From Candidatus Colimorpha merdihippi (GTDB lineage Bacteria; Bacteroidota; Bacteroidia; Bacteroidales; P3), in contig JAGHRY010000064.1 of assembly GCA_018066145.1 (NCBI GenBank), positions 1 to 40,958 on the forward strand: a stretch of DNA of 40,958 nt, in the 5' to 3' direction. The notes below the pieces were generated by a model that saw only the letters and a program-made list of their open reading frames with translations, was not told the origin of the DNA and made no database searches. Position numbers and translations under genes: made by a program. Shown piece by piece: positions 7,463 through 35,010 of the stretch (position 1 is its first letter; each line of letters opens with the position of its first letter).

Positions 7463-7502
7463 TGCTTATTGCTTTAAAGTACATAATAGCATCTAAAAGA
7501 GA

Positions 7503-10007: not shown

Positions 10008-10012
10008 ATAAA

Positions 10013-10804: not shown

Positions 10805-10867
10805 CTTTTTATTTTTATTTATATAATAAACGTATAATTGATTTCATTATTGTACTCTACCCATTAT

Positions 10868-11611: not shown

Positions 11612-11615
11612 ATTT

Positions 11616-12632: not shown

Positions 12633-13108
12633 TCGGCTAACTTTTTAATAACTTTTGCAGGAACTCCTACAGCCAAACAATAGTCTGGAATATCCTTTGT
12701 AACAACAGCACCCGCTCCAACAACAGCACATTTACCCACGGTAACTCCCGGCATAATAATACTTCCTATTCCAATATGGGCACCGTCTTTTATAACTATC
12801 GGAGCATACTTCAACGGACAGTCCATTACTGGCATATCTTTATGGTAATACGATAAATCTCGTTGGTGGCATAACAATTGACATCCTGCAGTAATCCATA
12901 CATTTTCACCAATTGTAATAAGATCGGGTCTAGAATCTTCAATAATCACAGTACGAGTAATTTTTGAACCTTTTCCTACATGAACACCCCGCAATCTATG
13001 GATAGCAGTGGTTACATGCGCTGGGAAAGTAAACTGAGCAATAATGGAAAGCAATCGAATCCAAATACCCTTCATGACTGAAATCACAGTTCGATGATTA
13101 TTTGCCAT
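12629..13108 (-). CDS. Hexapeptide-repeat (left-handed beta-helix) acyltransferase
   Basis: From the Met at 13108 (MANNHRTVISVMKG) the protein has 159 residues; the longer ORF-track start (13153) would overlap the upstream gene by 31 bp and add a basic tail. Left-handed beta-helix repeats are clear at PIVIKDGAHIGIGSIIMPGV, TVGKCAVVGAGAVVTKDIP and GVPAKVIKKL. This is the WbbJ/CapG-type O- or N-acetyltransferase family that places an acyl (usually acetyl) group on a sugar. Its neighbour is a PaaK/CapK-like ligase gene, so the acyl donor may not be acetyl-CoA. Confidence 0.85.
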   Translation of the reverse strand: MANNHRTVISVMKGIWIRLLSIIAQFTFPAHVTTAIHRLRGVHVGKGSKITRTVIIEDSRPDLITIGENVWITAGCQLLCHQRDLSYYHKDMPVMDCPLKYAPIVIKDGAHIGIGSIIMPGVTVGKCAVVGAGAVVTKDIPDYCLAVGVPAKVIKKLAE

Positions 13109-13122
13109 AATACTTAACTTTA

Positions 13123-16453: not shown

Positions 16454-16483
16454 TTCATCTAATAATGTTATCAATAACTTCTT

Positions 16484-17443: not shown

Positions 17444-17453
17444 TTTTCAGCAT

Positions 17454-18542: not shown

Positions 18543-18550
18543 AATCCATT

Positions 18551-19975
18551 TTATAGCAAGCCTCTTGAGCCTAATTTGAATACAGCCCAACTAATAATCA
18601 AAATGGGCATCAACCAATACCACATTCGCACATATCGGTAGTTCCAATTATCAACCAACGTGATGCCATATGCCGCTATCATCAATAGTATTGGATATCC
18701 TGGCAATAGGAACCGTTCCGAATTTGCAAAACCACTTGTACAAACAATACCTAAATATGCAACTATAAAGGCACCGATTAGTGTAAAATTCCTCCAGTTC
18801 TTCTTTCCCAATAATGCATTTAATAATGCCAAAATCACAAAAATACCCATAAAGTTTCGAACATAATTGCCTCCATTATTCATTTGTTGAGCATATTGAT
18901 TATCAACATCCACCATCGTCGGAAATGGCAAAACGAACATCATCGGCGCCATTACTGTACCTGTCGCATATTTGGCCCATTCATATCCTTTATTTACTTG
19001 GTGACTTCGTTTTGCCGCCTGGTTACCGCCACGGGAATTCCATAACTGTTCAGCTTCGCGCGCAATACGTCCACCTGCAAAAAATGTAATAGCAACTACA
19101 GCCCATACTATTAGCAGTACACGATTACTCTGAGTCATCATGGTACTATTCGAAAAGACTAAGGAACTAAAAATTGCAAAGACAACAGCCGATCCTAATA
19201 CACTTCGAAAGAAAAACAAACTAGCTGTGAGCAAAAAAGCTAAAGTAACGTTCAAAATTCCTGCTTTTTTTTGTCTCATCATGTAATCAGATCTCTCTAG
19301 TGCAGCTACCGCCAAGAAAATCATTTCGGTTTCTTTTAAATGCATACCACAATACATTATCAAATTTGGACAGAAACAACAAAAAACTGCAGCCATGCGA
19401 GCAGCATCCTCGTTGAAAGTCCGTTGAGCTAACTTATAAATCAACACACACATCCAAGAGCCCAATATTGATTTAATAATACGCGTGATAAATATATTCG
19501 GCCCATATATTCCATATAGGAAATACAAATACAATGGATAGCCAATATCACCTCGAGAAACATGCCGCAGATAATCACGAGTTTCGTCCCATCCTATCTC
19601 ATGGTACCAAATGGCAGCTGTATGATATCCTAATGAATCACTTGCTCCGAATTCGAATGGAATACCCGTTTTTATCGTATAAAATACCCATGAGAATAAA
19701 ACCCAAACAATTCTTATAACCAACGCTATCACAAATAGTTTTCTCACAAATTTCTTTTGCTCATAACCATGCCATTTTCTTGATAAGCGCGAAGAATTTA
19801 AAAAGAAGATCAACACCCATGCAATACCTATCAACATAAATTCTGGTCGCATGATATAATCTCTAAATATAAAACTCACGGCTGCCAAAGCGAGAAAATA
19901 ACTCACAATCGCTTTTGAAGAGAACTCTTTTGGAAAATACTGAATCACTGTATTCGATTTTTTATTTCGGTTCAA
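18551..19975 (-). CDS. Polytopic inner-membrane protein (GT-C-like or polymerase candidate)
   Basis: A 474-residue protein with about 10 or more hydrophobic segments, among them AIVSYFLALAAVSFIF, LIGIAWVLIFFL, LFVIALVIRIVWVLFSWVF and MGIFVILALLNALLG. The first large loop has GASDSLGYHTAAIWYHEIG and GDIGYPLYLYFLYG, a layout like GT39/ArnT-type GT-C glycosyltransferases, which use polyprenyl-linked sugars at the periplasmic face. In position it could instead be a Wzy-type polymerase, but the locus exports by an ABC transporter, where Wzy is not expected. The GT-C assignment is tentative. Confidence 0.6.
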   Translation of the reverse strand: MNRNKKSNTVIQYFPKEFSSKAIVSYFLALAAVSFIFRDYIMRPEFMLIGIAWVLIFFLNSSRLSRKWHGYEQKKFVRKLFVIALVIRIVWVLFSWVFYTIKTGIPFEFGASDSLGYHTAAIWYHEIGWDETRDYLRHVSRGDIGYPLYLYFLYGIYGPNIFITRIIKSILGSWMCVLIYKLAQRTFNEDAARMAAVFCCFCPNLIMYCGMHLKETEMIFLAVAALERSDYMMRQKKAGILNVTLAFLLTASLFFFRSVLGSAVVFAIFSSLVFSNSTMMTQSNRVLLIVWAVVAITFFAGGRIAREAEQLWNSRGGNQAAKRSHQVNKGYEWAKYATGTVMAPMMFVLPFPTMVDVDNQYAQQMNNGGNYVRNFMGIFVILALLNALLGKKNWRNFTLIGAFIVAYLGIVCTSGFANSERFLLPGYPILLMIAAYGITLVDNWNYRYVRMWYWLMPILIISWAVFKLGSRGLL

Positions 19976-20017
19976 TTATGTTTTCAAGCAAAACACCTGA
20001 ACTATAATGATATAATG

Positions 20018-20878
20018 CTATTTAATTTTAAAAAGATGTAACAAAGCAAATAGCAGATAGTCGAACATATTTTTATATCCTTTTGCATCAATTACAACTA
20101 ATCCTTTATACATATTCAAGGTATGCATTCCTTCATTCATACGTTTACTCGGTGAAACAATTCTTCGCACTGGAGTGAACCGTATACCATCTTCTGTTTT
20201 TGAGACTTTGTTCACAATCACTGCTCCACCATATGTCTTTGAACAATCTTGCATCGGACAATATACTTCACCTTGATATTTAAAGAATTGGCCTGCTAAT
20301 CTGAAATCAGCTTGAGCAGACTCATATGTTCTTGAGTGAATAAATCTCATCTGAGATTCACTCCAATCATATTCCTCAAGACAAAAATGGTTTTCCCTGC
20401 CTCCAAACAACTGCCATTTTCCAAAATACTCAGTGATAGTAGAATCCCATAATCCGTCATTACAGATCGTCTGAACGGGTATCAATTGCTCATCCTTTTC
20501 ACTATACTCATAGATATCCAGCTTTTTACTATGGCAATTTTCAGGATAAACATATACTTTACCTTCATGCCTGATTATGTTAGGGAAACTCAAATGAGTT
20601 TTTTCATGTAAAATGATATCCATGCTCAACATCTTATACGACACCTTGTCTATTGTCAACTTGGCAATACGGCCTCGTTTATGATATCGACACTCCTCAG
20701 CAAGTACATATATATATTTATCATCTACGTCCAAAATAAATGGATCCGCAAACCATCTATCGCTGTATATATTCTTAACCCAATGGACCTTTAATTTCTC
20801 AGTTCCAAACAAAGGCTCTACTCCTCCCTCAACAAACCCTATTATCCAATCTTTCCTAATCTTTCTCCTTATTATCAT
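20018..20878 (-). CDS. GINT1-N-like beta-propeller protein
   Basis: A 286-residue protein resembling the N-terminal domain of glucosamine inositolphosphorylceramide transferase 1 (GINT1), a beta-propeller domain found in plants and as stand-alone proteins in bacterial polysaccharide loci. Recurring blade-like motifs are RWFADPFILD, HLSFPNIIRHEGKVYVYPEN, DGLWDSTITEYFGKWQLFGG and QFFKYQGEVYCPMQDCSKTYG. The propeller may bind sugar or act as a transferase; the bacterial role has not been settled to my knowledge. It starts 4 bp inside the GT2 gene upstream, so the two are translationally coupled. Confidence 0.65.
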   Translation of the reverse strand: MIIRRKIRKDWIIGFVEGGVEPLFGTEKLKVHWVKNIYSDRWFADPFILDVDDKYIYVLAEECRYHKRGRIAKLTIDKVSYKMLSMDIILHEKTHLSFPNIIRHEGKVYVYPENCHSKKLDIYEYSEKDEQLIPVQTICNDGLWDSTITEYFGKWQLFGGRENHFCLEEYDWSESQMRFIHSRTYESAQADFRLAGQFFKYQGEVYCPMQDCSKTYGGAVIVNKVSKTEDGIRFTPVRRIVSPSKRMNEGMHTLNMYKGLVVIDAKGYKNMFDYLLFALLHLFKIK

Positions 20879-21849
20879 TTTACCCTCCTCCCGATTTTTA
20901 ATAAAAACTGTTTTACTATTGACAATTTTCCTTTAACATAAAAACGTATACGTTCCTTCCAAATTGGAGAATGGTATATATTATACGTGTTCTTAGACAC
21001 ATTCTTCCAGTCTACTTTTTCAAGCATCTGTAGAGCCATATTATGATACTCCTTAGAAAGATAATATCTATACATTCCACTAGCCCTTAATCGATCCATG
21101 AGTACTTTAAAATCGGGATTAATCCTTTCTTGATTTTCCAAATATCCCAAATTCCACATCATATGGGAATTTGGTTCATGTAGTCTGCGCGTAGCCCTTT
21201 GCCCGATTGGTATATCTTGAAAATAATTTGATAGCGGTTTATTAACTAGAGCGACTTTGTATCGCAAGGCGATTCTAATCCATAAATCGAAATCTTCTCC
21301 TAATGTAATTCCACTACGAAACTGTCCTGCACTATAAAAAATGTCTTTTGGTATAGCTACAGAGCTAGACGTGATCGGCATACAGAGTCGCTTAGCATAC
21401 ACTTGACAATAATTGATGTAACCCATTTTAAAATCAGCCGGAAGCGCAACTGGAGCTATTCTTTTTTGTCCATTTTTTACCAAGTAGTAGTTTGTTCCAT
21501 ACAAACCAGCTTCGGGATACTTTTGTATTAAATCATCCATTTCCTCCAAAAAAGTATCCTCCCACCAATCATCCGAATCCAAAAAACATATATACTGTCC
21601 TCTCGATAAGGATACACCATTATTACGCGCTACAGCAACTCCCGAATTTTCTTGCTGCACCACCTGTGCATTTGGTTTGGTTTTCAGAAAATCTCGAGCA
21701 ATTTGGAATGAATAATCCTTGCTTCCATCATCTACTACTATTACTTCGAAATTATTATACGTTTGAGAATAAATGCTTTGCAAAGTTTTCTCAACATATA
21801 ATTCTTTATTATATAATGGGACAATTATCGAAAATCTTGTATGTTCCAT
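20875..21849 (-). CDS. Glycosyltransferase family 2
   Basis: A 324-residue GT-A glycosyltransferase. The N-terminal nucleotide-sugar site is SIIVPLYNKELYVEKTLQSI with VIVVDDGSKD. The DXD-type motif is CFLDSDDWWEDTFLEEMDD at about residue 95. The C-terminal third is basic and could associate with the membrane. It sits in a tandem set of glycosyltransferase genes and couples to the GINT1-like gene. Donor and linkage cannot be read from the sequence. Confidence 0.92.
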   Translation of the reverse strand: MEHTRFSIIVPLYNKELYVEKTLQSIYSQTYNNFEVIVVDDGSKDYSFQIARDFLKTKPNAQVVQQENSGVAVARNNGVSLSRGQYICFLDSDDWWEDTFLEEMDDLIQKYPEAGLYGTNYYLVKNGQKRIAPVALPADFKMGYINYCQVYAKRLCMPITSSSVAIPKDIFYSAGQFRSGITLGEDFDLWIRIALRYKVALVNKPLSNYFQDIPIGQRATRRLHEPNSHMMWNLGYLENQERINPDFKVLMDRLRASGMYRYYLSKEYHNMALQMLEKVDWKNVSKNTYNIYHSPIWKERIRFYVKGKLSIVKQFLLKIGRRVK

Positions 21850-21865
21850 TTAGTGAGAATGGTAT

Positions 21866-22825
21866 TTATTTCTTTATCCAAGATCCTTCATGTCCAAGAA
21901 GGCGTTTTAGCCGACGATTAAGTCGGTATTTCAGTCTCCTTCTTCCTTTCTTCCCATAATTATCAGGATCGAAGTATATCCTCTGAAAATCTCTATCGGC
22001 AAGACGTTGAATCGACTCATCTGTTGGATGAATTATCGGGAGTATCGAACTTGTTTTCTTTGCAGCGGCAGGAGAATTAGAATTCCATGTATGCGTCGAA
22101 TCTTCACAAAAACCTATATTGGAACATAGATTCACATTTGGCAAAATACCTTTCCCTCCCCGCCTCCAAATCGACATCCAGAATTGCTGATCCCAACTAG
22201 AATTATGTAAACCATCCTTATGTATCTCATCCAACCGGGCACACCAATATTCCCTCTCTCTCAAATCACATTTATATCTCCTTAATACACTATTTAATTC
22301 TTTTCTATTTAAATCGACCAATTTAATGTCAAAAATTCCCCATGCCCTCCTCCATGTTGCCCAAGCACATAAAGTATGGTTCATTCTGGAAAAATAGTAC
22401 GACCCATCACCATACCTTTTTCCTTCCAACTGCATACTACCGATGCACATCACATTTCCATCATTGCGATAACGATCCAACATTTGTGCAGCAAATTCAA
22501 AAAAATCAATATGCGGAACAGCGTCATCTTCTATTATAATACCCTCATCAACATGTTCAAAAAACCATGAAATGCCTCGCGCCGGTCCTGGGCCACACCC
22601 TAAATTCACTTCAGAGTATAGCGTATGGACATCACATTTCCAATCTATACTCTCCGATATTACGGTACGGACTTGTTGACACCTTTCTATATCTTGAGTA
22701 TTACCTTCACGAGCTCCATCTTGAAAAACGAACAATACTTCAGGCTCATACTCCCTTATAGCTCTCAATACTGTGCTGGTTAATTCCGGCCTATTAAAAG
22801 TAACTAAAAGTACTGGTTTCTTCAT
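21866..22825 (-). CDS. GT-A-fold sugar transferase (HlpA-like group)
   Basis: A 319-residue glycosyltransferase-like protein starting KPVLLVTFNRPELTSTVLRA. GISWFFEHVDEGIIIEDDAVPH holds a DD motif for metal and nucleotide sugar. CAWATWRRAWGIFD and HNSSWDQQFWMSIWRR are conserved in the group annotated as hemolytic protein HlpA-like or nucleotide-diphospho-sugar transferase. It ends in a strongly basic tail (KKGRRRLKYRLNRRLKRLL) suited to a membrane surface. It overlaps the deacetylase gene by 4 bp. Confidence 0.75.
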   Translation of the reverse strand: MKKPVLLVTFNRPELTSTVLRAIREYEPEVLFVFQDGAREGNTQDIERCQQVRTVISESIDWKCDVHTLYSEVNLGCGPGPARGISWFFEHVDEGIIIEDDAVPHIDFFEFAAQMLDRYRNDGNVMCIGSMQLEGKRYGDGSYYFSRMNHTLCAWATWRRAWGIFDIKLVDLNRKELNSVLRRYKCDLREREYWCARLDEIHKDGLHNSSWDQQFWMSIWRRGGKGILPNVNLCSNIGFCEDSTHTWNSNSPAAAKKTSSILPIIHPTDESIQRLADRDFQRIYFDPDNYGKKGRRRLKYRLNRRLKRLLGHEGSWIKK

Positions 22826-23550
22826 TTTTCCTTTTTTAAATAATAGCTATCTATAGGCTTCCGTCCTATTCCGTAATGGAATCGATAATTCGATGCTCCA
22901 TCGGTGAATACCGGAACCACTTTCTTCTGCTTTAGAATTTGTTGGGTCTGTTCTGAATAGTTACCCCATGTATAAGCATAAAAAGATATATATCTCGGAT
23001 GGTTTGATAGCATATTAATACATTTATTCACAGATTCTTCAAACTGGTCCGAGGATAGTCGAGTTGCATCATTGTGCTCATATCCATGCATTCCTATTGT
23101 GACGTTTTCTGAATGGATTGAAAACAAATCTTTATGAGTAATATATTGAGGGTTAAGTGAATATTCTTTTCGTTTACTTATTCCATCCAAATAACAAGGA
23201 TTCACGAACAAAGTAACTGGCACTTTTCTTTCTTCAAGAAACGGTATTATCTGCAAGACGGATTCAAAACCATCATCACAAGTCAATACCGCATACTTCT
23301 TACTTCGGAATAAATCATGACACATCATCCAATACGCTTGTTCTAAAGAAATAAACGTGTATCGTTGTTGATAATTAATAATCCTCTGTTTGAAATCTTT
23401 TGTAGATGACCAATCAACCCTCATATTCAATTGCTCATCATACTTGTCACTCACTGCGTGGAACACGAATACTTCAATTGGAGACAATCGCATTTTCTCC
23501 ATCTTCCTAACAACTTTCCTAAACATTTTTCTCACTCTACCCATGCCCAT
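22822..23550 (-). CDS. Polysaccharide deacetylase (NodB homology)
   Basis: A 242-residue carbohydrate esterase 4-type protein. Motif 1 is AVLTCDDGFESV (TFDDG-like, with the catalytic and metal Asp pair) and motif 2 is IGMHGYEHNDATRLS with both expected His residues. SFYAYTWGNYSE resembles a later motif. No signal peptide is evident. The basic N-terminus (VRKMFRKVVRKMEKMRLS) suggests a cytoplasmic or membrane-surface enzyme acting on an intermediate. The ATG at 23550 overlaps the previous stop as TAATG, which supports that start over the second ATG 6 bp on. Confidence 0.85.
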   Translation of the reverse strand: MGMGRVRKMFRKVVRKMEKMRLSPIEVFVFHAVSDKYDEQLNMRVDWSSTKDFKQRIINYQQRYTFISLEQAYWMMCHDLFRSKKYAVLTCDDGFESVLQIIPFLEERKVPVTLFVNPCYLDGISKRKEYSLNPQYITHKDLFSIHSENVTIGMHGYEHNDATRLSSDQFEESVNKCINMLSNHPRYISFYAYTWGNYSEQTQQILKQKKVVPVFTDGASNYRFHYGIGRKPIDSYYLKKEK

Positions 23551-24191
23551 TATTTATTCCTAAAAATTCGACTGCTTCTTATCTTTCCTGTATTAAAAAA
23601 ATGGACATAATCGAATAATTCGAACCAATGTAATGCATCCCCACATAATTTTGTCTTTAAAAGGTCTCCTTGACAATATTTCGGATTTTTTATAACAAAC
23701 ACCGACTTGAGTCCAGGATAATCCTTCATCGTTATTATTGCTTTATGCTTCAAATTAAGACGATCAAATTCTTCAACATCTTCCTCCGGACAATTATCAC
23801 CATCTACCAAAACAAATAAATTGTCCAAATCTAGTCGCTTTGCCCTGTCATACCACTTCTTCCTAACCTCAGCTTCGGTTGAATAATGAATAAAATGTAT
23901 AGTTACATCTCCAAGCTCACTCCGCAAAACACCTACCGGATATTTATACTCTGATGGAATAAAATCTATCGGTTGATTGACATAATAATCTATGTTTGAA
24001 ACAAACACATTAAACTCTGCAGGAACGAAAAATGCACAATTAATAGTCGGCGATTTAAATTGAAGACCTAGCTCATGACTTATCATTCCACCTAAACAGG
24101 TATTTGAGACCAAAGAAAAATTATTATTCCTAAGTCTTGACCTATTTAGAAACCGCACTACAGATTTAATTATTTTTAATCCAATTTTCAT
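23550..24191 (-). CDS. DUF1919-family exopolysaccharide protein
   Basis: A 213-residue protein matching the DUF1919 group of polysaccharide loci. Shared features are RNNNFSLVSNTCLGGMI at the N-terminus, an aromatic, acid-rich middle (FVPAEFNVFVSNIDYYV), DVTIHFIHYSTEAEVRKKW and LFVLVDGDNCPEEDVEEFDRL. The family is often listed near glycosyltransferases and acyltransferases; its reaction is unknown to me. It overlaps the GNAT gene by 4 bp and the deacetylase gene by 1 bp, so it probably acts on the same acylated intermediate. Confidence 0.75.
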   Translation of the reverse strand: MKIGLKIIKSVVRFLNRSRLRNNNFSLVSNTCLGGMISHELGLQFKSPTINCAFFVPAEFNVFVSNIDYYVNQPIDFIPSEYKYPVGVLRSELGDVTIHFIHYSTEAEVRKKWYDRAKRLDLDNLFVLVDGDNCPEEDVEEFDRLNLKHKAIITMKDYPGLKSVFVIKNPKYCQGDLLKTKLCGDALHWFELFDYVHFFNTGKIRSSRIFRNK

Positions 24192-25249
24192 CCTCCAAAT
24201 CCATCACCATCTCCTCCCTGTGAGACGGCATCTTTTATTATATTAAATGATTCCGGGTACGAGAAAGAAATTCTTTCTTCTCTTTCATTCCAAAAAATCT
24301 TACTTCCACTAATATATTGAGCCAATCGAGGATCCCTCGTCGAAAAATTATTGTTTTTCAACTTTATTATATGTTCAGCAATCGAAGCGAAGACTTGTTC
24401 TTCATATTTCTCGTTATAATATAGATACTTGATTGACAGGCTTCTATCCGAATCGCTAATATAATAATAACCCTGCAATTTCCCATCCACAAAAATCTTC
24501 ACTCCCGACTTCCAAAACCGAGAACTTTTCCCTGCGAAGTATCCCGTCCAGTAATCTCTACCATATAAAGGAGCCCAATGTCTATATGAATATTCCATTA
24601 TCCAATTTAACATTGGCTGCTCTCTTTGCCATAAGTCTTTTTCCCGGTGATCCTGTATAAACGAATATGTGTTATCATCTATAAAGCTGGTATACATCAA
24701 ACGATATTTGGTCAAAGTTACTTTTTTCTTTATCCCGGAACGACGCAACCTATTTGCAGCTTTCCAATTCTCATAATGATACAGTAACTTTCCTTTAAAA
24801 GTATCTTTGACGATATTTTTTTGTTCGAAAATATACTCGCTCACGAATGTATTTTTCAAACCCAAAAACTTGAATATCTCTACTGTTTCTGCAGCGCCCC
24901 ACATATCGAAATAATTCCCTTCACCATACTCCTCTGCCAAGCAACCAACGGCTATTAAGGCATAACCCTTACCTCGACAATCCGGATGGCACCACAAAGT
25001 TGTAAACCACCATACCTTTTGACCGCTTATCAAATCTGGGAAAGCTGCAGTACAGGCGACCATTTTATCGTCTTCAAAAACTGCAGAGGCAATTGGATCA
25101 TCATCCAAAATGTATGGGTTATGTAAAATTGCATTCGCCCTATCGGGAGATAGAATTCGATTGGAATATCCTTCCAAAGGACGATTATGCCATAACCAGT
25201 CTCGGACTTCCTTGGCTTTAAAGATCTTTATGTCGACTTGTTCTTCCAT
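24188..25249 (-). CDS. GNAT-like acyltransferase, large form
   Basis: A 353-residue protein. The middle of the N-terminal domain shows the GNAT core: ASAVFEDDKMVACTAAFPDL, WFTTLWCHPDCRGKGYALIA (R-x2-G-x-A) and YFDMWGAAETVEIFKFLGL. The C-terminal half (KVTLTKYRLMYTSFIDDN, IFVDGKLQGYYYISDSD) may be a second GNAT-like lobe. Enzymes of this fold move acyl groups from CoA or from carrier proteins to amines. The gene is immediately after an ACP gene (0-bp spacing) and the adenylation enzyme gene, so an aminoacyl or acyl donor on ACP is plausible. That donor is an inference. Confidence 0.7.
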   Translation of the reverse strand: MEEQVDIKIFKAKEVRDWLWHNRPLEGYSNRILSPDRANAILHNPYILDDDPIASAVFEDDKMVACTAAFPDLISGQKVWWFTTLWCHPDCRGKGYALIAVGCLAEEYGEGNYFDMWGAAETVEIFKFLGLKNTFVSEYIFEQKNIVKDTFKGKLLYHYENWKAANRLRRSGIKKKVTLTKYRLMYTSFIDDNTYSFIQDHREKDLWQREQPMLNWIMEYSYRHWAPLYGRDYWTGYFAGKSSRFWKSGVKIFVDGKLQGYYYISDSDRSLSIKYLYYNEKYEEQVFASIAEHIIKLKNNNFSTRDPRLAQYISGSKIFWNEREERISFSYPESFNIIKDAVSQGGDGDGFGG

Positions 25250-25492
25250 CTAACCAATATGGTTCAAAACAGAATCAATAATTGCCCCCATATTCTTCAT
25301 TTTCAATATTTCTATCATTTTGAATTTGAAACCGAATTCATGCTCTATTTCAGAAAGAAATTGTGTAAATGTAAGTGATGTCCATGCAGGCACATTCGAG
25401 GCACTTAATTCATCACTGATTTTTAGCTCCGGTTGTCCAAACACAGCTTGAGCTATCAATTCCAACTTATCAGAAATCTGTTGTCTTGTCAT
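25250..25492 (-). CDS. Acyl/peptidyl carrier protein
   Basis: An 80-residue four-helix carrier protein. The attachment serine is probably the Ser in NVPAWTSLTFTQFLSEIE at about residue 37, in place of the more usual DSL. FKFKMIEILKMKNMGAIID is the typical third and fourth helix. It would carry a phosphopantetheine arm loaded by the adenylation enzyme encoded just upstream, as in the DltA/DltC pair. Its ATG overlaps that stop as TAATG. No phosphopantetheinyl transferase is in the window. Confidence 0.85.
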   Translation of the reverse strand: MTRQQISDKLELIAQAVFGQPELKISDELSASNVPAWTSLTFTQFLSEIEHEFGFKFKMIEILKMKNMGAIIDSVLNHIG

Positions 25493-27000
25493 TATATCAA
25501 TTGTTTTAATGCTGCTCGATCAATCTTATCAGAATGATTCAGCGGGAAGGTATCTAGATAGATTATACGAGAAGGTATCATATATTGCGGCATTTTAGAT
25601 TTTAAATATGCCTCTAATGAAGATCTCTCACGTCCAATAGATTCAATAAATAACGCTATTTCTGTCAATCCTTTTTCATTATTAAACGATATGGCTACGC
25701 TTCGACAATTATTATCATAAAAAGTTCGCGCATGATACTCTATTTCTCCTAACTCTACTCTATATCCTTGAATTTTGGCCTGCTGATCGATTCTGCCGGA
25801 ATAAATAATATTGCCACTCTTGTCCCAATAACACAAATCCCCAGTAGAATAGAAACGCAACAACTCTCCTTCTATCTCTTTAATAAAGAAGGATGCATCA
25901 TTCCGTTCATCATTTTTCCAATATCCTCGGGTAATTTGATCGCCAGCAACACATAGTTCCCCCTTTATTCCCTGCCCCAAACTGTTACCATCTTCATCAA
26001 TAATAATGGCATTTACATTAGCAAGTGGTTTACCTATCGAAATAATACCATTTGACGACAGGTTAGTTTCGTCACGGTGCAACTTATAGCATGTACAATA
26101 TATAGTAGCCTCGGTCGGCCCGTAGAAATCATATATATCTGTATTTACCGCACATTTGAACCAATCCTCCATCAAATCTACTGGACACGCTTCTGCAGTG
26201 AGAATGCATGTTTTTAATGATTCTATCTTCATCTCCGAAAAATAGGGCCGTAAGTACGAAAGCATCGAAGGAGCCATAGCACCAAATGTAATACCCTGGT
26301 CTAACATCAATTCTGCTGCATAGAGATATTTTACTTGCCCGTAAGGAATTGTATAAACACTAGCCCCTTTGACCAATGCCACCAAAAATGATTGAATACT
26401 TACATCAAAAGTAAGGTCGAAAGCTTGAAGACACTTATCTGACGATGTTATTTCTATTCCCGTCTTCCAAAAAGAATCCATGAAGGTTGCAATATTCTTC
26501 CTCGACAAGCAAACTCCTTTTGGTGTACCCGTACTCCCTGAAGTGAACAAGATATATGCCAAATTGTCATCTGGTACTTGCACCGGGTCTTCTATACAGA
26601 TTTTTTTTAAGCAACTCGTTGTTTTTATTATCTGAAAACCAGAAGCTTCAAATGGCGATTCTTTTGCAGAATCAATAATATAATTGGTACCAACCTGAGC
26701 TAGAATATTCAAATTTCTATCCAATGGTTGATTAGGATGAAGTGGTACGTATGCTTTACCCTCCATCCATAATGCAATAATAGCCGCATATGTATCAACA
26801 TCATCGTGTACAGCTAATGCTACAATATCATCAATAATTTTCTGATGCTGGATTGCGACTCTAATTTGACAAATCTTCGTTCCTAATACAGCATAGGAAT
26901 ACGAAACCCCATTAATATAAAAAGCACAATTCTCTCTACATTCGAGAATCTGTTTGCTTATGGGCAATAGTACTTGATCAAAAAAGCTATTTACCTGCAT
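25492..27000 (-). CDS. NRPS-type adenylation enzyme, DltA-like stand-alone
   Basis: A 502-residue single adenylation domain, close in length to DltA. Core motifs are all present: A3 YILFTSGSTGTPKGVCLS, A4 QAFDLTFDVSIQSFL, A5 YDFYGPTEATIYC, A7 YSTGDLCYWDKSGNIIYSG, A8 IQGYRVELGEIEYH and A10 NHSDKIDRAALKQ with the catalytic Lys. The Asp in FDVS is the position that in NRPS adenylation domains holds the substrate alpha-amino group, so an amino acid substrate is likely. There is no condensation or thioesterase domain. It charges the following ACP, probably for transfer to the glycan rather than for peptide synthesis. Start overlaps the GT2 stop by 14 bp. Confidence 0.88.
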   Translation of the reverse strand: MQVNSFFDQVLLPISKQILECRENCAFYINGVSYSYAVLGTKICQIRVAIQHQKIIDDIVALAVHDDVDTYAAIIALWMEGKAYVPLHPNQPLDRNLNILAQVGTNYIIDSAKESPFEASGFQIIKTTSCLKKICIEDPVQVPDDNLAYILFTSGSTGTPKGVCLSRKNIATFMDSFWKTGIEITSSDKCLQAFDLTFDVSIQSFLVALVKGASVYTIPYGQVKYLYAAELMLDQGITFGAMAPSMLSYLRPYFSEMKIESLKTCILTAEACPVDLMEDWFKCAVNTDIYDFYGPTEATIYCTCYKLHRDETNLSSNGIISIGKPLANVNAIIIDEDGNSLGQGIKGELCVAGDQITRGYWKNDERNDASFFIKEIEGELLRFYSTGDLCYWDKSGNIIYSGRIDQQAKIQGYRVELGEIEYHARTFYDNNCRSVAISFNNEKGLTEIALFIESIGRERSSLEAYLKSKMPQYMIPSRIIYLDTFPLNHSDKIDRAALKQLI

Positions 27001-27922
27001 TCTTATGCTTTCTTATATATAACAATAATTTTGTCGTTGTGCGCAGATTCTTTGACACCTTTAAGTATTCTTGCAAGTACTTTAAAGCCATATTGTATCT
27101 GCCCATCCTTGCATTGGACCGAATGCTTTCACTTAATGTTTCTAAATAAACACATTTAGAATATTCTGATGGATTAATTTCATAGAATTCGCGATCTATC
27201 GGTAATGATTTGACACAATAATCATCTTTTGATATCATGCTATGTATCCCACCTTGATGATACCTATACACTCCACCATTAAAGGCAAACAAATATCCCT
27301 TTCCCACAGTCAAAAGGTGATATATTTCATGCATATCACGATAATATCTATATTGTTTTTGCCATTCTGGAGTAAACATCGATCGCCTGAACACCATTGT
27401 TAATGGCTGCGTTACCCATGGACCGAAGAACATTTCCATAGAAATATCTACTCCAACCTGATCTTTTTTGAGATATCTGCCACACTTGTCCCGACTAAAC
27501 TTTCCATTCTCTGAATTCAAATGACTACATCTATGGAAACAAACGGAATAATCCGGATGTGATTCCATAAAGTCTACTTGTTTTTGCAACTTTTGAGGAT
27601 CTGTCCAATAATCATCACCTTCACAGTATGCAATATACTTACCTCTGGCTCTATTGTAATTAAAAGCTATATCAATCACCGACTCCATCCCTTTCGAATA
27701 CTGATTCTCATCTTCATACAATGGGAATATTCGACTAGGGTATTTCGATGCATATTCTTTTATTATTTGATCCGACCCGTCAGTAGAGCAGTCATCATGA
27801 ATCAATACTTCATACTCAAAATCGGTTTGTTGCATCATAAAACCATCCAAACATTCCTTCAAAAAAGGGGCATGGTTGTATGACAAACAACAAATACTTA
27901 CAAGTGGTGTAGTATCTACCAT
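26987..27922 (-). CDS. Glycosyltransferase family 2
   Basis: A 311-residue GT-A glycosyltransferase. VSICCLSYNHAPFLKECLDG and VLIHDDCSTDGSDQII form the nucleotide-sugar site; KYIAYCEGDDYWTDPQKLQ is the DXD-type loop. It resembles the GT2 encoded at 30002-31015 in the ACKYVAKCEGDD-style region and the HPDYSVCFHRCSH segment, so the two are probably paralogues adding different sugars. It lies upstream of the adenylation gene and 4 bp after the ATP-grasp gene. Confidence 0.92.
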   Translation of the reverse strand: MVDTTPLVSICCLSYNHAPFLKECLDGFMMQQTDFEYEVLIHDDCSTDGSDQIIKEYASKYPSRIFPLYEDENQYSKGMESVIDIAFNYNRARGKYIAYCEGDDYWTDPQKLQKQVDFMESHPDYSVCFHRCSHLNSENGKFSRDKCGRYLKKDQVGVDISMEMFFGPWVTQPLTMVFRRSMFTPEWQKQYRYYRDMHEIYHLLTVGKGYLFAFNGGVYRYHQGGIHSMISKDDYCVKSLPIDREFYEINPSEYSKCVYLETLSESIRSNARMGRYNMALKYLQEYLKVSKNLRTTTKLLLYIRKHKNAGK

Positions 27923-27926
27923 TACC

Positions 27927-29129
27927 TTACTCTACTTCTACATTATATAAGCGATTTACATCCCTCATATAATTATCCATTATATCTTTATTATCGAAAT
28001 GAATAAACATTGTTCCAACGGTATCGTTGGCCCCATTGAATCCTCTGACTTCAACCCCGGAATCCAAAAATAAAGTTTTATCAACCACCATTCTCTCCAA
28101 CTCAGGCAACACTTCAACACTTCTTAATTTCCCAGTCTTGTTCGAATGAAGAATGACATTCCCCCAATATCCATTGCAACTTTTTTTATCAATTTCGAAA
28201 TTCATCCCAACAGCTGCTTTCACGGCACAATCAATCATATCTATTCCATAAGCATATCGAACCATCTCTGATAATCGATTGCCGCCGCCTCGTGGAGAAA
28301 CTTCCATTAAATAAGGTGTGCCATTCTTACTAATACGACATTCAATATTGAAAACTGACGTTCTCATTTGCAGTAAGTCAATCAACCGTTGAATTTCGCT
28401 TGTCAAATATTCTTGAACCGAGTTTGACATAGAAGATGGCCATGAATATGCCGCTGGAGTGAATGGATTGGGCGCATTTTTATCGAACAATTGGTTGTCA
28501 AACGAAACAAATGCCAATTTGCCATTTACAACAAAACTATCTGCATCGGATGTAGTGCCCAAAGGTTCGATGAATTCTTCAATGATAAAATCAGATGAAT
28601 GTATCGAAAATAATTGAGCTTGATCAATTGCCTTCTCCAATTCTGCTGGACTATCAACCCTTGTTACCCCTTTACTACCCGCAGAATCGACAGGTTTTAC
28701 AATACAGGGATAAGGAATCGTTGATATTTCCTGAAGAGCCATTGACTTGTCTTTGTACGACTTAACTATCGGTACATTGAAACCATTTTGCTTCAAGAAA
28801 GCCCTAAACAGGGACTTATTTTGCAATATTTCCACCGAATTACTTGGTCCTGCCGCTGGAATACCCATCTTCTCTGCTACGTAAGCCGCAGTGGTTACCC
28901 CAGGATCAACTGCAAAAGACAAAATCCCATCAATATTCTTTTCCTTAGCCACGGAAAGAACCGCTTCTTTGTCAATGATACTCACATTCACATACTCATC
29001 AGAGTATTTGTGTGCCACATTATCCGGTAGATAATCAGCTGTGATAACATGAATACCTAATTTATGGGCCGCCTCAATCACAGGTACCAAATAATAGATA
29101 CCACCTAAAAGCATTAATTTCTTTTTCAT
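27927..29129 (-). CDS. ATP-grasp carboxylate-amine ligase-like enzyme
   Basis: A 400-residue ATP-grasp enzyme. It has an N-terminal Rossmann-like part (LMLLGGIYYLVPVIEAAHKL), the mid-domain ADP-binding strand YPCIVKPVDSAGSKGVTRV, FIIEEFIEPLGTTSDADSFV and the magnesium-binding C-terminal piece YLMEVSPRGGGNRLSEMVR. This group forms amide or peptide bonds by activating a carboxylate with ATP. It could join an amino acid to another amino acid or to a uronic acid. It lies between two GT2 genes and two genes upstream of the adenylation gene, so it may supply or use the same amino acid. The substrate is unknown. Confidence 0.82.
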   Translation of the reverse strand: MKKKLMLLGGIYYLVPVIEAAHKLGIHVITADYLPDNVAHKYSDEYVNVSIIDKEAVLSVAKEKNIDGILSFAVDPGVTTAAYVAEKMGIPAAGPSNSVEILQNKSLFRAFLKQNGFNVPIVKSYKDKSMALQEISTIPYPCIVKPVDSAGSKGVTRVDSPAELEKAIDQAQLFSIHSSDFIIEEFIEPLGTTSDADSFVVNGKLAFVSFDNQLFDKNAPNPFTPAAYSWPSSMSNSVQEYLTSEIQRLIDLLQMRTSVFNIECRISKNGTPYLMEVSPRGGGNRLSEMVRYAYGIDMIDCAVKAAVGMNFEIDKKSCNGYWGNVILHSNKTGKLRSVEVLPELERMVVDKTLFLDSGVEVRGFNGANDTVGTMFIHFDNKDIMDNYMRDVNRLYNVEVE

Positions 29130-29139
29130 TCGAATAATA

Positions 29140-29997
29140 TTACGGCTGGATTCTGATTTTGCTTTTTATTTCCTTTATTTTTGTCTTCCATGACCTCGGA
29201 TACGGCCGATCGATTCCTCTTTTTATATTCCGCTTTGCTAATGGATAATAAAGCAAACAGTACTTTGGCAAAAAAGGCTTCATTAGTTTTAAAGTATCAA
29301 ACTGCGAACGTAACATGGCTTTTTTATCCATACCAGACCATTGGCCCATATTATTAATACGATATAGGGACGTGGGCTTTTTCAACCGACCAATAGGTCC
29401 ATGCGAGGCCATTATCATCCCTATTTCCCAGTCAGCAATGTAATGTTCGAAAAAGATTTCTGGTAACATTTGTAGAAATTTTCTTCGAAAGCAACATGCA
29501 GATAGGTTACCTATTTGATTGCCGTAGACTATAGTATCTCTCAGTTTCAATTTATAAAAGTCGTTTTTATATGGCCATGAGTGTACTATTTTCCTTCCAT
29601 TCTCTTGAAAATAATAGTACATTCTATTGAACGACATTGAAAAATGCGGATGATGCTCCAAAAAATTGACATGTTGTGCCAAATGGTCTGCCGTTTCCCA
29701 CCGATCATCTCCCTCTAAAATAGCAACATAATCACCTCTGCATACAGCAAAAGCCCTTTGATAGTTGGCAACGAATCCAATATTATGGTCACTCTGAAGG
29801 TAGTCGAATTGGAATGGTGATTCAACCTCGAGCCTCTTTATTATTTCCAAAGTCGAATCAGGAGAGCTGTCATCAGCTACCAAAACCCTTACATCAGCAT
29901 CAATTTTCTGGCGAATAATACTATTCACGGCTTCGCCAATAAAACGTTCCTGATTGTAGCAACACAATATTATGTCAACTTTAGGTCTTATGCCCAT
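29140..29997 (-). CDS. Glycosyltransferase family 2
   Basis: A 285-residue GT-A glycosyltransferase. VDIILCCYNQERFIGEAVNS and RVLVADDSSPDSTLEII form the nucleotide site; DYVAILEGDDRWETADHLAQ is the DXD-type loop at about residue 95. It is followed by a C-terminal basic segment (KIKEIKSKIRIQP). It lies 10 bp upstream of the ATP-grasp gene. Confidence 0.92.
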   Translation of the reverse strand: MGIRPKVDIILCCYNQERFIGEAVNSIIRQKIDADVRVLVADDSSPDSTLEIIKRLEVESPFQFDYLQSDHNIGFVANYQRAFAVCRGDYVAILEGDDRWETADHLAQHVNFLEHHPHFSMSFNRMYYYFQENGRKIVHSWPYKNDFYKLKLRDTIVYGNQIGNLSACCFRRKFLQMLPEIFFEHYIADWEIGMIMASHGPIGRLKKPTSLYRINNMGQWSGMDKKAMLRSQFDTLKLMKPFLPKYCLLYYPLAKRNIKRGIDRPYPRSWKTKIKEIKSKIRIQP

Positions 29998-30001
29998 GCT
30001 G

Positions 30002-31015
30002 TTATCGACGAATATTTTTTATCGGGTACAGTAATTTCCGTCCTATTCTATACGCCCATGAACCCGACACAGTGTTATACTTTTGATGATAGCCAACATA
30101 CTCTCGACATTTAGCAATAAACCACTGCATATCTAACCCTTGAGAAACAAAGAAAGTCTCAGCCTCAGCAACAAACTTTTTATCCCCAACTTCTATTGCC
30201 ATAAACATTAATTGGGCATATTCCTGAATTTTCAATCGACTAATCAGTTCGCTACCGCAACCATATTTATTTGCAATATAAAGTTGTGTATCAAATACAC
30301 CCCGTTCATACTTCCATTGTTGACCAATACTTTTGGGAGAAGATAGCCCTCCCTGCCGATTCGTATACACTGCCGTAGCTTCATCGATGTAGTGAACATC
30401 CCCTAACTGGAACAAGTCAAGTGCCATTGCTAACGAAGCATCACTCAAACCCTTATATGGCCCGAGTGTTTTATAAATTTCAGACTTTATAAGCCACGTT
30501 GGCGGCGCTATATATCCAGCCGTTAGTAAGTGATCTTCAAAACATTGTGGAATTTTACCGGTTCTTTTAATAAAATTCTTTTTTGTGATACGACCATTTG
30601 AATCACCCACATGACAATCGGTGTAACACATCACACACTCCGGATGAGACTCCATGTATTCGACCTGCATCTGGAGCTTTTTCTTATTTATCCAGAAATC
30701 ATCTCCTTCGCATTTAGCAACATATTTGCAGTCGTACTCGCCCAATAATTCCCTCAATTTTTTGCCTAGAAGCCCCTTCGAATACATATTACTACCCGAA
30801 GGCTCTATTACTGCCCTAATAATGTCCGGATACCGTCTTGCATACTGCATTATTACTTTATCCGACCCATCTGTTGAAGCATCATCGTGAACAACCACGA
30901 CAAAGGGGAATGTTGTTTCTTGCTCAACAAAACCCTTTAACGTACGCTCAACATAATCCACCTCATTGAATACAGGGCAGAGGCAAACTACTAATGGAAT
31001 CAATGAATCGCTCAT
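30002..31015 (-). CDS. Glycosyltransferase family 2
   Basis: A 337-residue GT-A glycosyltransferase. VVCLCPVFNEVDYVERTLKG and VVVVHDDASTDGSDKVI make the nucleotide site; CKYVAKCEGDDFWINKKKLQ is the DXD-type loop. It parallels the GT2 at 26987-27922 in the HPECVMCYTDCHVG segment and in general length, suggesting an old duplication. It is the first glycosyltransferase gene after the ABC exporter pair, so it may add an early sugar. Confidence 0.92.
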   Translation of the reverse strand: MSDSLIPLVVCLCPVFNEVDYVERTLKGFVEQETTFPFVVVVHDDASTDGSDKVIMQYARRYPDIIRAVIEPSGSNMYSKGLLGKKLRELLGEYDCKYVAKCEGDDFWINKKKLQMQVEYMESHPECVMCYTDCHVGDSNGRITKKNFIKRTGKIPQCFEDHLLTAGYIAPPTWLIKSEIYKTLGPYKGLSDASLAMALDLFQLGDVHYIDEATAVYTNRQGGLSSPKSIGQQWKYERGVFDTQLYIANKYGCGSELISRLKIQEYAQLMFMAIEVGDKKFVAEAETFFVSQGLDMQWFIAKCREYVGYHQKYNTVSGSWAYRIGRKLLYPIKNIRR

Positions 31016-31045: not shown

Positions 31046-32329
31046 CTACTCAACCTTTGTTTCAACAAAATCAAACTTGGGAGTAATATCACCAGGTTCT
31101 TTCCCCACATATCCTCCAACTGATACTGCTTTGTTTGCGATAACAAAAGATACTATATCATATTCCACCAATATAGGCTCTTTCTTATCCACAACAAACA
31201 AAAGATCAATTGCATAGCTACCCCAATTTAAGAAATTAGCAGGAATACGGCACTGTTGTTCGTATACTCCCGCTTCATGTTCCAAACTATAGCATCTTCC
31301 ACCTCCAGACATTGAGAACATGGCAATACCTTGATCGTTTTTGAGATGAAATGTCAAATGTGACTGTTTAAAATCTCGCTTTAGACGATATTTGATATTA
31401 AACTCTATCTCATTATCCATATTCATAACGTCTCGATAATCCTTTCCAACTGCACGTACTCCAATCTCTAAAAGTTCGAAACCTTTTCTAGACATAATCG
31501 GTTCGTTTCCGTACTGTTTGTGATTAATGATATCGCTCTTTCCTTTCAGATAAGTAGACACTGCAGTTTCTACATCTGCATCCATTGCCACCATACCATG
31601 TTCAAGAATTATGCCTCGCTGACATAACGATTTGATACTGGTCATATTATGACTTACAAAAAGAACCGTACGACCATCATCCTTACTCACATCCTGCATT
31701 TTACCGATGGCTTTCTTTTGGAACTCAGCATCACCAACGGCTAATACTTCATCAACCACAAGAATCTCGGGTTCCAAAAATGCCGCAACTGCGAAACCCA
31801 AACGTACCGTCATACCCGAACTATATCGCTTTACTGGAGTATCAATATAACGCTCACACCCGCTAAAGTCAATAATTTCATCAAGCTTTCTATCAATCTC
31901 GGCTTTAGTCATACCCAAAATAGCACCATTCAGGTATATATTCTCTCGACCAGTCATCTCACCATTAAAGCCTGTACCAACCTCTAGCAAAGACCCTATT
32001 CGGCCTCTAGCGCGAATCTCACCTGTTGTTGGACCTGTAACACGAGACAGGAGTTTCAAAAGGGTACTTTTACCTGCACCATTGCGACCAATAATTCCAA
32101 CAACCTGACCTTGATCAATCTTCAGGTTAATATCTTTGAGGGCCCATACATAATCACTATCAGCCTTCAATGCGCGGTTATTCACCGAACCAATTTTTAG
32201 GAAAGGGTCTTCCTTTCCCAAGACTCGCATAGCCCAAAAACGCTTTAAGTCATCACTTAGTGTCTTTGAGGAAACCAAACCGAGTCTGTATTGTTTAGAA
32301 ATATTTTCAAATTCAATTGCTGTAGCCAT
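31046..32329 (-). CDS. wzt: Polysaccharide ABC exporter ATP-binding subunit (Wzt-like)
   Basis: A 427-residue ATPase that powers export of the finished polymer. The nucleotide-binding domain (about residues 1-245) has Walker A VVGIIGRNGAGKSTLLKLL, signature VKRYSSGMTVRLGFA and Walker B EILVVDEVLAVGD with VLFVSHNM. The C-terminal extension (about 265-427) is the beta-sandwich type (VEYDIVSFVIANKAV) that in Wzt binds the modified non-reducing end of the polymer. Its presence implies recognition of a chain-terminating modification. The permease gene lies 59 bp upstream. Confidence 0.93.
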   Translation of the reverse strand: MATAIEFENISKQYRLGLVSSKTLSDDLKRFWAMRVLGKEDPFLKIGSVNNRALKADSDYVWALKDINLKIDQGQVVGIIGRNGAGKSTLLKLLSRVTGPTTGEIRARGRIGSLLEVGTGFNGEMTGRENIYLNGAILGMTKAEIDRKLDEIIDFSGCERYIDTPVKRYSSGMTVRLGFAVAAFLEPEILVVDEVLAVGDAEFQKKAIGKMQDVSKDDGRTVLFVSHNMTSIKSLCQRGIILEHGMVAMDADVETAVSTYLKGKSDIINHKQYGNEPIMSRKGFELLEIGVRAVGKDYRDVMNMDNEIEFNIKYRLKRDFKQSHLTFHLKNDQGIAMFSMSGGGRCYSLEHEAGVYEQQCRIPANFLNWGSYAIDLLFVVDKKEPILVEYDIVSFVIANKAVSVGGYVGKEPGDITPKFDFVETKVE

Positions 32330-32388: not shown

Positions 32389-33261
32389 TTATACAGTATC
32401 CAAGAAACTCTTTTGAGTTTTGTTAAATACAATCAATCCAAAAAATATCATGAGTATCATGAAACAAAAACTATATCCAAGCCATTCCCATCCAATGAAT
32501 TCACCAGCGCCTAATGCTCCATATTTAAAGGTTTCAAGTACAGGTGTTACCGGATTGAATCTCATAATATTATATAATTCAATACCGGCTGCCACTTTCC
32601 CCTTTGCCAAACTCAATGGATACACGATAGGTGTAGCATACATCCATAAGCTGGTAACAAAGCCGAACAGAATACCCAAATCACGGTATTTCGTAGTCAT
32701 GCTGGTAATCACCATTCCAAATCCAAGTGCCAAGCCTGCCATCATTAATACCAGAATCGGGAATAACAACAAATACCAGTTGGGACTTGCAGGACAATCA
32801 CCCTTAACATAATAAAATATGTAAATAGCAATAAACAATCCTATTTGAATAAAGAATCTCAACAAATTGGATGTAACATTTACCAGCGGGGTAATAATTC
32901 TAGGGAAATAAACCTTACTGAACAAGCCACTATTTCCTCTGAATGTACCTGAAGTTTTACCTAAACAATCAGAAAAATAATGCCACATAGCAGTACCCGA
33001 AAGGTAAAACAGTGGTTTAGGAATACCATCTGTACCGATTCCGGCGATACCACCAAATACTACCATGTACATGAAAATTGTCATTATTGGTTGAATAATA
33101 AACCATAATGGTCCTAATACCGTTTGCTTGTACTGAACCGTAATGTTTCGTTTCACCATTACGGTAAACAAATCGCGGTACTGCCATAATTCTTTAAAAT
33201 CAATTGCCAAAGCTTTATCCTTGGGCTTGATAATGGTTGTCCATTTTTGATTCTCACTCAT
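32389..33261 (-). CDS. wzm: Polysaccharide ABC exporter permease (Wzm-like)
   Basis: A 290-residue ABC-2-type permease. About six transmembrane helices are visible, including GPLWFIIQPIMTIFMYMVVF, FFIQIGLFIAIYIFYYV, LLLFPILVLMMAGLALGFG and YSFCFMILMIFFGLIVF. The N-terminal VQYKQTVLGPLWF is the amphipathic entry motif of the family. It forms the inner-membrane channel for the polymer with the ATPase encoded 59 bp downstream. Confidence 0.93.
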   Translation of the reverse strand: MSENQKWTTIIKPKDKALAIDFKELWQYRDLFTVMVKRNITVQYKQTVLGPLWFIIQPIMTIFMYMVVFGGIAGIGTDGIPKPLFYLSGTAMWHYFSDCLGKTSGTFRGNSGLFSKVYFPRIITPLVNVTSNLLRFFIQIGLFIAIYIFYYVKGDCPASPNWYLLLFPILVLMMAGLALGFGMVITSMTTKYRDLGILFGFVTSLWMYATPIVYPLSLAKGKVAAGIELYNIMRFNPVTPVLETFKYGALGAGEFIGWEWLGYSFCFMILMIFFGLIVFNKTQKSFLDTV

Positions 33262-33299: not shown

Positions 33300-34484
33300 C
33301 TAATGCGAATGCTTGTGTTTCAATATAATGTTGTTCATTATTCCCCAAAAATACTTCCAATCTGTTCGAAGTGGGTTTTTCAAATAGGCTTCACAATATC
33401 TGCGCTCCGATTCTTGAATTTCATCCAATGTTTCGGGCTGATTCTTCTCGAAATATAGTGGAGGAAGCAATCCTGGCTTTGTTTTGATACGGAGTTCTTG
33501 CATCTCAGGACTATATAAACTAAAAAACTGCTGAGACAATGGTCTTACCCCTACAAGCTTCATTTCACCCTTAAGAATATTCAGTAGCATCGGCAGCTCA
33601 TCAAGCCATGTTTTCCGCAAAAATGCACCAATGCCATTGATTCTGTAATCTTGGTAAAACTTTCCCGTGTTATCCAGTTTACGATGTTGGTATACATACT
33701 CCTGCAAATATTCGCTGTAAGAGTACATGGTGCGGAATTTGTAAACAGTTATTATCTTGCCACATTTCCCAACACGACGAAGTTTTGCTATAGGTGAAGT
33801 ACTGGGAACCCCTTTTAAATTGGGCTCCTTCACTTTTCGAGCTATCACACGAAACTCTGCATGAGCAGTATTCTCATACACCACTTCAAAACCGGCACGA
33901 TACAACCTTCCTAAGATTTCAACCCGATGGAAAGTGCGATTACATCCTTTTGTAATGCCAAAATATATTTTCTTTAGACCTTTTATCTTGGGGAAAACTC
34001 GATGCCATAAGTAGTGAAACCCATATAAAACCTTATTCAACGGCCACGGATATCGGCTCATAAACATGGCTTTTTTTACTGCTGATGTACGACAATAACA
34101 TACCAAATATCCACCTTGATCTATCTTGCTATTTGCCTCAATCAGAAATTTATTGAGTTCAAATATAGTATGGAGCGGACGCATCACAAAAATCGCATGG
34201 TAATTTCTTCCATCCAACCTATCCGGAATAGGGTCGCATCCATTATATTTCATTCTCAGCAGTAGCGTCGAATCTGAAAATCGATTCTCATGCGACAGGA
34301 ACCAAATGCATACCTGCTTCATTGATTCGTCATCAGTCTCCTCGAAAAGCAGCCTAACGTCAGGATCATCAATGTCTTCGGCCTTCAAATCATCACAACC
34401 CTCACTTCCCTTCTCAGCAAAATCATTGCTAGGAAGATACTGCTGCTCACGAAGAGGATCCAACGGATATAATGGTCTTCTCAT
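33300..34484 (-). CDS. Initiating-type sugar transferase with an unusual N-terminal domain
   Basis: A 394-residue protein whose C-terminal 160 residues are a bacterial sugar transferase domain: KIITVYKFRTMYSYSEYL, a Q-D-Y-R-I-N segment holding the expected Asp, LRKTWLDELPMLLNILKG and LVGVRPLSQQFFSLY. Such enzymes put the first sugar-phosphate on polyprenyl phosphate. The usual hydrophobic re-entrant helix directly before the catalytic core is missing. Instead residues about 1-220 look like part of a methyltransferase-like domain (GGYLVCYCRTSAVKKA, LYRAGFEVVYENTAHAE) without the glycine-rich SAM motif. It lies 8 bp upstream-side of upxY in transcript order, which is usual for capsule loci. Activity as an initiating enzyme is uncertain. 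Confidence 0.75.
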   Translation of the reverse strand: MRRPLYPLDPLREQQYLPSNDFAEKGSEGCDDLKAEDIDDPDVRLLFEETDDESMKQVCIWFLSHENRFSDSTLLLRMKYNGCDPIPDRLDGRNYHAIFVMRPLHTIFELNKFLIEANSKIDQGGYLVCYCRTSAVKKAMFMSRYPWPLNKVLYGFHYLWHRVFPKIKGLKKIYFGITKGCNRTFHRVEILGRLYRAGFEVVYENTAHAEFRVIARKVKEPNLKGVPSTSPIAKLRRVGKCGKIITVYKFRTMYSYSEYLQEYVYQHRKLDNTGKFYQDYRINGIGAFLRKTWLDELPMLLNILKGEMKLVGVRPLSQQFFSLYSPEMQELRIKTKPGLLPPLYFEKNQPETLDEIQESERRYCEAYLKNPLRTDWKYFWGIMNNIILKHKHSH

Positions 34485-34491
34485 GATACTT

Positions 34492-35010
34492 TTATTGAAC
34501 TATCTCTAAAAAATGAGGGTGTATATATGTAGTTGCTACAGCAGCTACCCCTCTTATACTTACCACCAGACGGCGATCTTTTTTAATACGTTTGATATGG
34601 CCTTCGGCACCTTTAAATGGCCCATCAGTCACCCTAACCCTATCTCCTTGATGGTACTCTGGCTTATCTTCCCCTAAATATGAAAGTCCTTGTTTGCCAG
34701 CTGAACAAACAAACATAAAAACTTCCATTTCGGCTTCAGGAATAGCAGCAGGTTTATGCGATAGAGGATCTCGATATATCCAAATTCGTTCAAAATTACT
34801 TTGTTCGAATTGCTTCATATAATCTTCTGTGCTATAAATAAAAACTAATGAACCTATCACCTCAGGCACATAATACCGGACTCCTTCTAACAATAGCTTT
34901 CTACAAATTACTTCCGTCCGGTTGTAATGCACTTTTACCGCATACCATCGCAGATCATCCACTTTCTCAATAATAAAAAATATCTCAAAACCAGGTGCAT
35001 TTCTTCCCAT
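34492..35010 (-). CDS. upxY: UpxY-family transcription antiterminator (NusG-like)
   Basis: A 172-residue NusG paralogue of the UpxY group that prevents premature termination of Bacteroidales capsule operons. The N-terminal RWYAVKVHYNRTEVICRKLL is the NGN domain (about residues 21-105) and the C-terminal HQGDRVRVTDGPFKGAEGHI is the KOW domain (about 120-165). As usual it is the first gene of the locus and lies in the same direction as all genes down to 6353. No UpxZ homologue follows, so cross-inhibition of other capsule loci is not encoded here. The start ATG follows GGGGG. Confidence 0.92.
   Translation of the reverse strand: MGRNAPGFEIFFIIEKVDDLRWYAVKVHYNRTEVICRKLLLEGVRYYVPEVIGSLVFIYSTEDYMKQFEQSNFERIWIYRDPLSHKPAAIPEAEMEVFMFVCSAGKQGLSYLGEDKPEYHQGDRVRVTDGPFKGAEGHIKRIKKDRRLVVSIRGVAAVATTYIHPHFLEIVQ

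Follow-up and report, generated by a model that had tools for sequence, protein, structure and literature searches.

A reading frame on the minus strand of the window, the 40,958-nucleotide stretch of DNA analysed here, encodes a protein that keeps the catalytic core of a monotopic phosphoglycosyl transferase (monoPGT; Bac_transf, PF02397) and lacks the re-entrant membrane helix (RMH), with half of a class I methyltransferase fold standing in front of the core. With a probability of roughly 55%, we read this headless protein as an active relative of PglC and WbaP whose RMH has been replaced by the degenerate half-methyltransferase, which would anchor it on the membrane, and the enzyme would start or feed an exported polysaccharide. 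From the architecture, the invariant residues, the phylogeny and the gene neighbourhood described below we infer its activity, acceptor, membrane contact and initiating role. The core would take a UDP-sugar, form a phospho-sugar intermediate on Asp295 with the help of Glu296 and Mg2+, and hand the sugar-1-phosphate to polyprenyl phosphate, and the product would start, or add a phospho-sugar to, the polysaccharide moved by the neighbouring Wzm/Wzt. The half-methyltransferase would have no role in methylation, and its helical insertion would rest the enzyme on the inner membrane face beside the lipid acceptor. The frame first annotated at 33300-34484 checks out exactly in strand and coordinates, and the features discussed are collected in Table 1.

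Table 1. Features of the headless protein and its locus, in window coordinates
Feature	Coordinates	Strand	Evidence
Headless phosphoglycosyl transferase, 394 aa (half-methyltransferase + PF02397 core)	33300..34484	-	ORF, Pfam, AF2 model
Bac_transf (monotopic PGT) core without re-entrant helix, residues 232-389	33318..33791	-	PF02397, Foldseek
Residues 336-346, KPGLLPPLYFE, in place of the canonical KPG-TG-xQ-x-R loop	33447..33479	-	Alignment of relatives
Asp295-Glu296 catalytic dyad	33597..33602	-	Identical in 87/87
Arg290, five residues ahead of the Asp, at the place of PglC Arg88	33615..33617	-	Identical in 87/87
C-terminal half of class I methyltransferase fold, residues 41-221, without SAM-binding half	33822..34364	-	Methyltransf_23, AF2, Foldseek
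Helical insertion, residues 134-178, between strand 121-131 and helix 187-196	33951..34085	-	AF2, hydrophobicity/moment, aligned relatives
UpxY-type transcription antiterminator, directly upstream of the headless gene	34492..35010	-	NF033644 over cut-off
Wzm-type ABC exporter permease, directly downstream of the headless gene	32389..33261	-	PF01061
Wzt-type ABC exporter ATPase with Wzt_C-like domain	31046..32329	-	PF00005; PF14524 under its cut-off
Remaining polysaccharide locus: glycosyltransferases, ATP-grasp and AMP-binding enzymes, epimerase, deacetylase, Wza, Wzc, DegT aminotransferase	6353..31015	-	

PF02397 was the sole Pfam domain found in the protein (E = 2.2e-25; 89.7 bits, cut-off 27), and the three motifs on which the first-pass annotation had based its call of a sugar transferase core are all present: YKFRTM at residues 248-253, LDELPMLLNILKG at 294-306 and VGVRP at 311-315. 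AlphaFold2 (AF2), run on the whole protein with 87 sequences, gave a model with a pLDDT of 88.8 and a pTM of 0.84, and Foldseek with this full model returned PglC (8e37) first (E = 1.9e-9), then WbaP (8t53, E = 1.8e-5) and then methyltransferases. By the comparison with 8e37, the core has the PglC-like fold of the PF02397 superfamily. It is also the most conserved region of the headless protein among the aligned relatives, and all 87 of these share R237, K249, R251, D279, R281, R290, D295, E296, N302, G312, R314 and P315. The Asp-Glu pair, named as the catalytic dyad of monoPGTs (PMC10519829), and the core motif of the superfamily are both in place.

The RMH is stated to be common to all members of the monoPGT superfamily (PMC10519829), and it is reported that PglC cannot do without it for its structure, its anchoring in the membrane and its binding of polyprenyl phosphate (PMC6133551). 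The absence of this helix, as first annotated, was borne out by the profile match, the hydropathy and the model. The PF02397 alignment pairs model positions 36-161 (of 179) with residues 232-367, and because the match only begins at position 36, the part of the model that describes the RMH (positions 1-35) is missing. Match starts across 61 related genomes fall into two humps, at positions 1-2 for canonical enzymes and at 31-39 for 26 headless copies. The maximal 19-residue Kyte-Doolittle window of the window protein is 1.07, whereas in each of the nine canonical enzymes tested a segment immediately N-terminal of the core reaches 1.6-2.97; a segment above 1.6 is absent from 90 of 102 relatives. 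Where canonical enzymes carry a hydrophobic segment ahead of KFRTM, such as KRMADVVLSIFALVVLSPVYLITAIIVKCTSPGPVFYAQ in the window genome's own second copy, the window protein reads ...EFRVIARKVKEPNLKGVPSTSPIAKLRRVGKCGK instead, and in the AF2 model methyltransferase strands occupy the place where the RMH would be expected. Structure prediction had been proposed as a check, and no re-entrant helix is concealed ahead of the core in the model; together with the hydrophobicity scan, the model excludes a hidden RMH. A decayed or frameshifted canonical gene was likewise excluded, as the same architecture is found in full-length relatives. Under a definition that includes the RMH, the protein therefore lacks one defining feature of the superfamily and has the catalytic ones, and the first-pass interpretation holds in part: its description of an unusual member of the sugar transferase family is apt, whereas the soluble or peripheral state that it raised would be conjectural. 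Most likely, the protein works like a monoPGT, as a variant of that class.

The first-pass annotation had implied a single oddity; instead, the protein belongs to a widespread and conserved subfamily. A contig scan of genomes returned 267 relatives, the best 80 of which are nearly all Bacteroidota by title, and about 26 of 396 Bacteroidota genomes in a spread sample gave a strong full-type match. Within the genus, a headless copy is found in 23 of 37 genomes, nearly always in addition to a canonical copy elsewhere in the genome. In a core-only tree (quick search, midpoint root), 26 headless sequences are separated from 12 canonical ones by a branch whose SH-aLRT is 100; judged by the core sequences, the headless proteins are one clade in Bacteroidota, distinct from the canonical enzymes. 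One locus, L037, bears the title Fibrobacter, but its neighbourhood is Bacteroidales-like, and it may be a binning error. Locus L089 carries tandem headless copies (1405-2478 and 2824-3567), the second of which ends at the contig end; L103 and L106 (466-474 aa) have a different N-terminal extension; and a transposase helix-turn-helix model gave a weak match to one member of the family (E = 0.011). No description of the headless subfamily was found in the literature searched; the main survey, which lies outside that scope (PNAS 2021, e2018289118), may list it.

The gene sits in a polysaccharide locus, next to its exporter. Wzm lies within 300 bp downstream of the headless gene in 57 of 76 related loci, and, of 77 loci, 37 have DegT and 23 have UpxY within 300 bp upstream; in Aquimarina-type loci, Wza/Wzc take the place of Wzm. 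A hexapeptide acyltransferase and a DegT aminotransferase adjoin the gene in many relatives, and NCBIfam gave no above-cut-off name for either neighbour. No other Bac_transf (PF02397) was found in 80 loci of about 10 kb each (809 kb in total), and polyPGT queries from the window genome had no matches in related loci (about 10 kb each). A simple exchange of the headless gene for a canonical transferase at one locus was also considered; among the Wzm relatives examined that have no headless gene, none has a canonical transferase adjoining Wzm, which gave no information either way on such an exchange. The invariant catalytic residues and the tight exporter linkage together favour an active PGT from which the locus obtains its first, or a special, phospho-sugar. 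The window genome also holds one canonical monoPGT and three PF00953 matches, all on other contigs, and because these are other possible initiators, initiation by the headless enzyme is not forced.

Other genes of the locus are of interest in their own right. Two AMP-binding (adenylating) enzymes and an ATP-grasp ligase (25492-29129 and 13123-14523, minus strand) suggest amide or acyl decorations of the glycan. At the locus edge, divergent from UpxY, a "sugar-transfer associated" ATP-grasp (PF14397, E = 1.2e-42) lies at 35203-36234 on the plus strand of the window. A frame at 20018-20878 (minus) matches the N-terminal domain of the plant glucosamine inositolphosphorylceramide transferase GINT1 (PF24793, E = 7.5e-18) inside this bacterial locus. 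The frames at 21866-22825 and 10868-11656 (both minus) had no Pfam match, and the family of the latter recurs next to the headless transferase in Aquimarina-type loci.

The residues that would hold the acceptor are only partly those of PglC, in which Arg88 and Arg145 are reported to bind undecaprenyl phosphate (PMC10519829). Arg290 was assigned to Arg88 by its spacing from the catalytic Asp. The Arg145 loop was placed by residue counting and alignment, and its position is occupied by a PGLxPPxY motif in which P337, G338, P341 and P342 are identical in 87 of 87 relatives and Y344 in 85 of 87; no Arg is conserved there across the 87 aligned relatives. This replacement makes a different acceptor possible, as does the loss of the RMH, since that helix is reported to be essential in PglC (PMC6133551). 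One tentative reading of the architecture is that the half-methyltransferase may be a lid or anchor with which a monoPGT-type core takes a lipid acceptor that is not free undecaprenyl phosphate, and the RMH would then be dispensable for the chemistry. In the same direction, though somewhat doubtful in our judgement, the enzyme could place its sugar-phosphate onto a growing glycan, a preformed lipid-linked sugar or another lipid, and a housekeeping canonical or polytopic enzyme encoded elsewhere would initiate. The alteration of two reported undecaprenyl phosphate-binding features and the other PGTs of the window genome fit this proposal, and the acyltransferase and DegT neighbours suggest a special sugar; the invariance of Arg290 and the lack of a second Bac_transf in the loci argue against it.

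The front of the protein had been described as 220 residues resembling a methyltransferase without a SAM-binding motif. The half-methyltransferase is real, but the length was slightly generous, as residues ~1-40 are poorly conserved and partly of low confidence in the model. Modelled alone, residues 1-222 gave a pLDDT of 89.8 and a pTM of 0.87 with the same elements as in the whole-protein model, namely strands 95-100, 121-131, 199-205 and 211-217, helix 187-196 and the three helices 134-144, 149-166 and 168-178; helix 110-119 also belongs to the half-fold. Methyltransf_23 matched 29 of 87 relatives scanned singly (best E = 6.7e-6), and in relative L047 the alignment covered profile positions 69-163 of 164, which is the back half only. 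Foldseek with residues 1-222 returned almost exclusively class I methyltransferases of the CmoA type (best E = 1.8e-4), with TM values of 0.35-0.40 by query length. The methyltransferase matches are individually weak, and those shown lie under the Pfam gathering score; by sequence alone, the front gave only a weak phosphoethanolamine methyltransferase match in the PDB (E = 0.015), and a viral fold library returned mostly generic methyltransferases. Sequence, profile position and fold nevertheless agree, each match being modest, and the front is the back half of a class I methyltransferase: the C-terminal Rossmann-like half is there and the N-terminal SAM-binding half is missing, with no GxGxG (motif I) found in residues 1-100. 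Of 297 genomes, 23 contain the front domain, nearly always within frames long enough for the core; the exceptions are a marginal match in G038 and, in G180, a second copy at a contig edge. The half-methyltransferase thus occurs almost only as a fusion to the headless core, and the shortest relatives (~299 aa) have still less of it.

After methyltransferase strand 5, the AF2 model has an insertion of three helices (134-144, 149-166 and 168-178). The middle one is aromatic-rich and amphipathic with moderate hydrophobicity only, and the insertion carries a conserved HRVxPK motif with aromatic neighbours, in which R162 and K166 are conserved in more than 90%. On this model, helix 149-166 is a plausible candidate for a membrane-surface anchor. 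Among class I methyltransferases, UbiG binds the membrane via an insertion (PMC4796655), and the comparable place of that lipid-binding insertion leads us to favour, by analogy, a surface anchor here. Eight of the 12 relatives with a segment above 1.6 are long forms of 627-681 aa with 5-8 predicted TM segments (L084, L087, L095, L096, L098, L099, L102 and L105), in which a TM module precedes the half-methyltransferase and the headless core; the module received no Pfam name in the two scanned (L084 and L095). Its presence in these eight relatives argues that the family functions at the membrane. Contact could also be indirect, with a soluble enzyme whose half-methyltransferase docks on a partner protein of the membrane, such as Wzm or a glycosyltransferase, and not on lipid. 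The want of a TM-strength segment in 90 of 102 relatives and the close linkage to Wzm would suit such recruitment, which we consider unlikely, as Wzm does not adjoin the gene in a quarter of the loci and Aquimarina-type loci have Wza/Wzc instead.

Without RMH and acceptor loop, the protein could also have lost turnover and be a non-catalytic regulator or scaffold with a retained substrate pocket; given that the catalytic residues of the core are invariant across 87 divergent sequences and that the core is the most conserved part, such a role is very improbable. A bifunctional methyltransferase-sugar transferase, which the methyltransferase-like front might bring to mind, is hardly credible, as the SAM-binding N-terminal half is missing (Methyltransf_23 matches only from position 69) and the shortest relatives have even less of the front. 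A conserved RMH-less clade with intact catalytic residues is a natural experiment on whether the RMH serves chemistry, lipid holding or anchoring only. It would also explain the source of the first (or a special) phospho-sugar in many ABC-exporter polysaccharide loci of Bacteroidota.

Among known systems, PglC (PDB 8e37, 8g1n) resembles the headless protein in core fold, Asp-Glu dyad, KFRTM-type and VG-RP motifs and the equivalent of Arg88, whereas the headless protein lacks the N-terminal RMH and the Arg145-bearing loop and has an extra front of 220 residues. WbaP (PDB 8t53) shares the core motifs, an N-terminal extension and the setting in a surface-polysaccharide locus. However, the four-helix TM bundle, the PF13727 domain and the RMH of WbaP (PMC10942596) are all missing from the headless protein, and by Pfam and hydropathy it is not a large PGT of the WbaP type, which combines the four-TM bundle with PF13727. 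Bi-PGTs, in which a functional domain is fused to the core (PMC10942596), likewise carry a foreign domain, but the domain fused here is a half-enzyme that stands at the place of the RMH. The class I methyltransferases UbiG, CmoA and Coq5 share the fold of the C-terminal half, and UbiG has its comparably placed insertion; unlike them, the headless protein has no SAM-binding half, and no methylation is expected of it.
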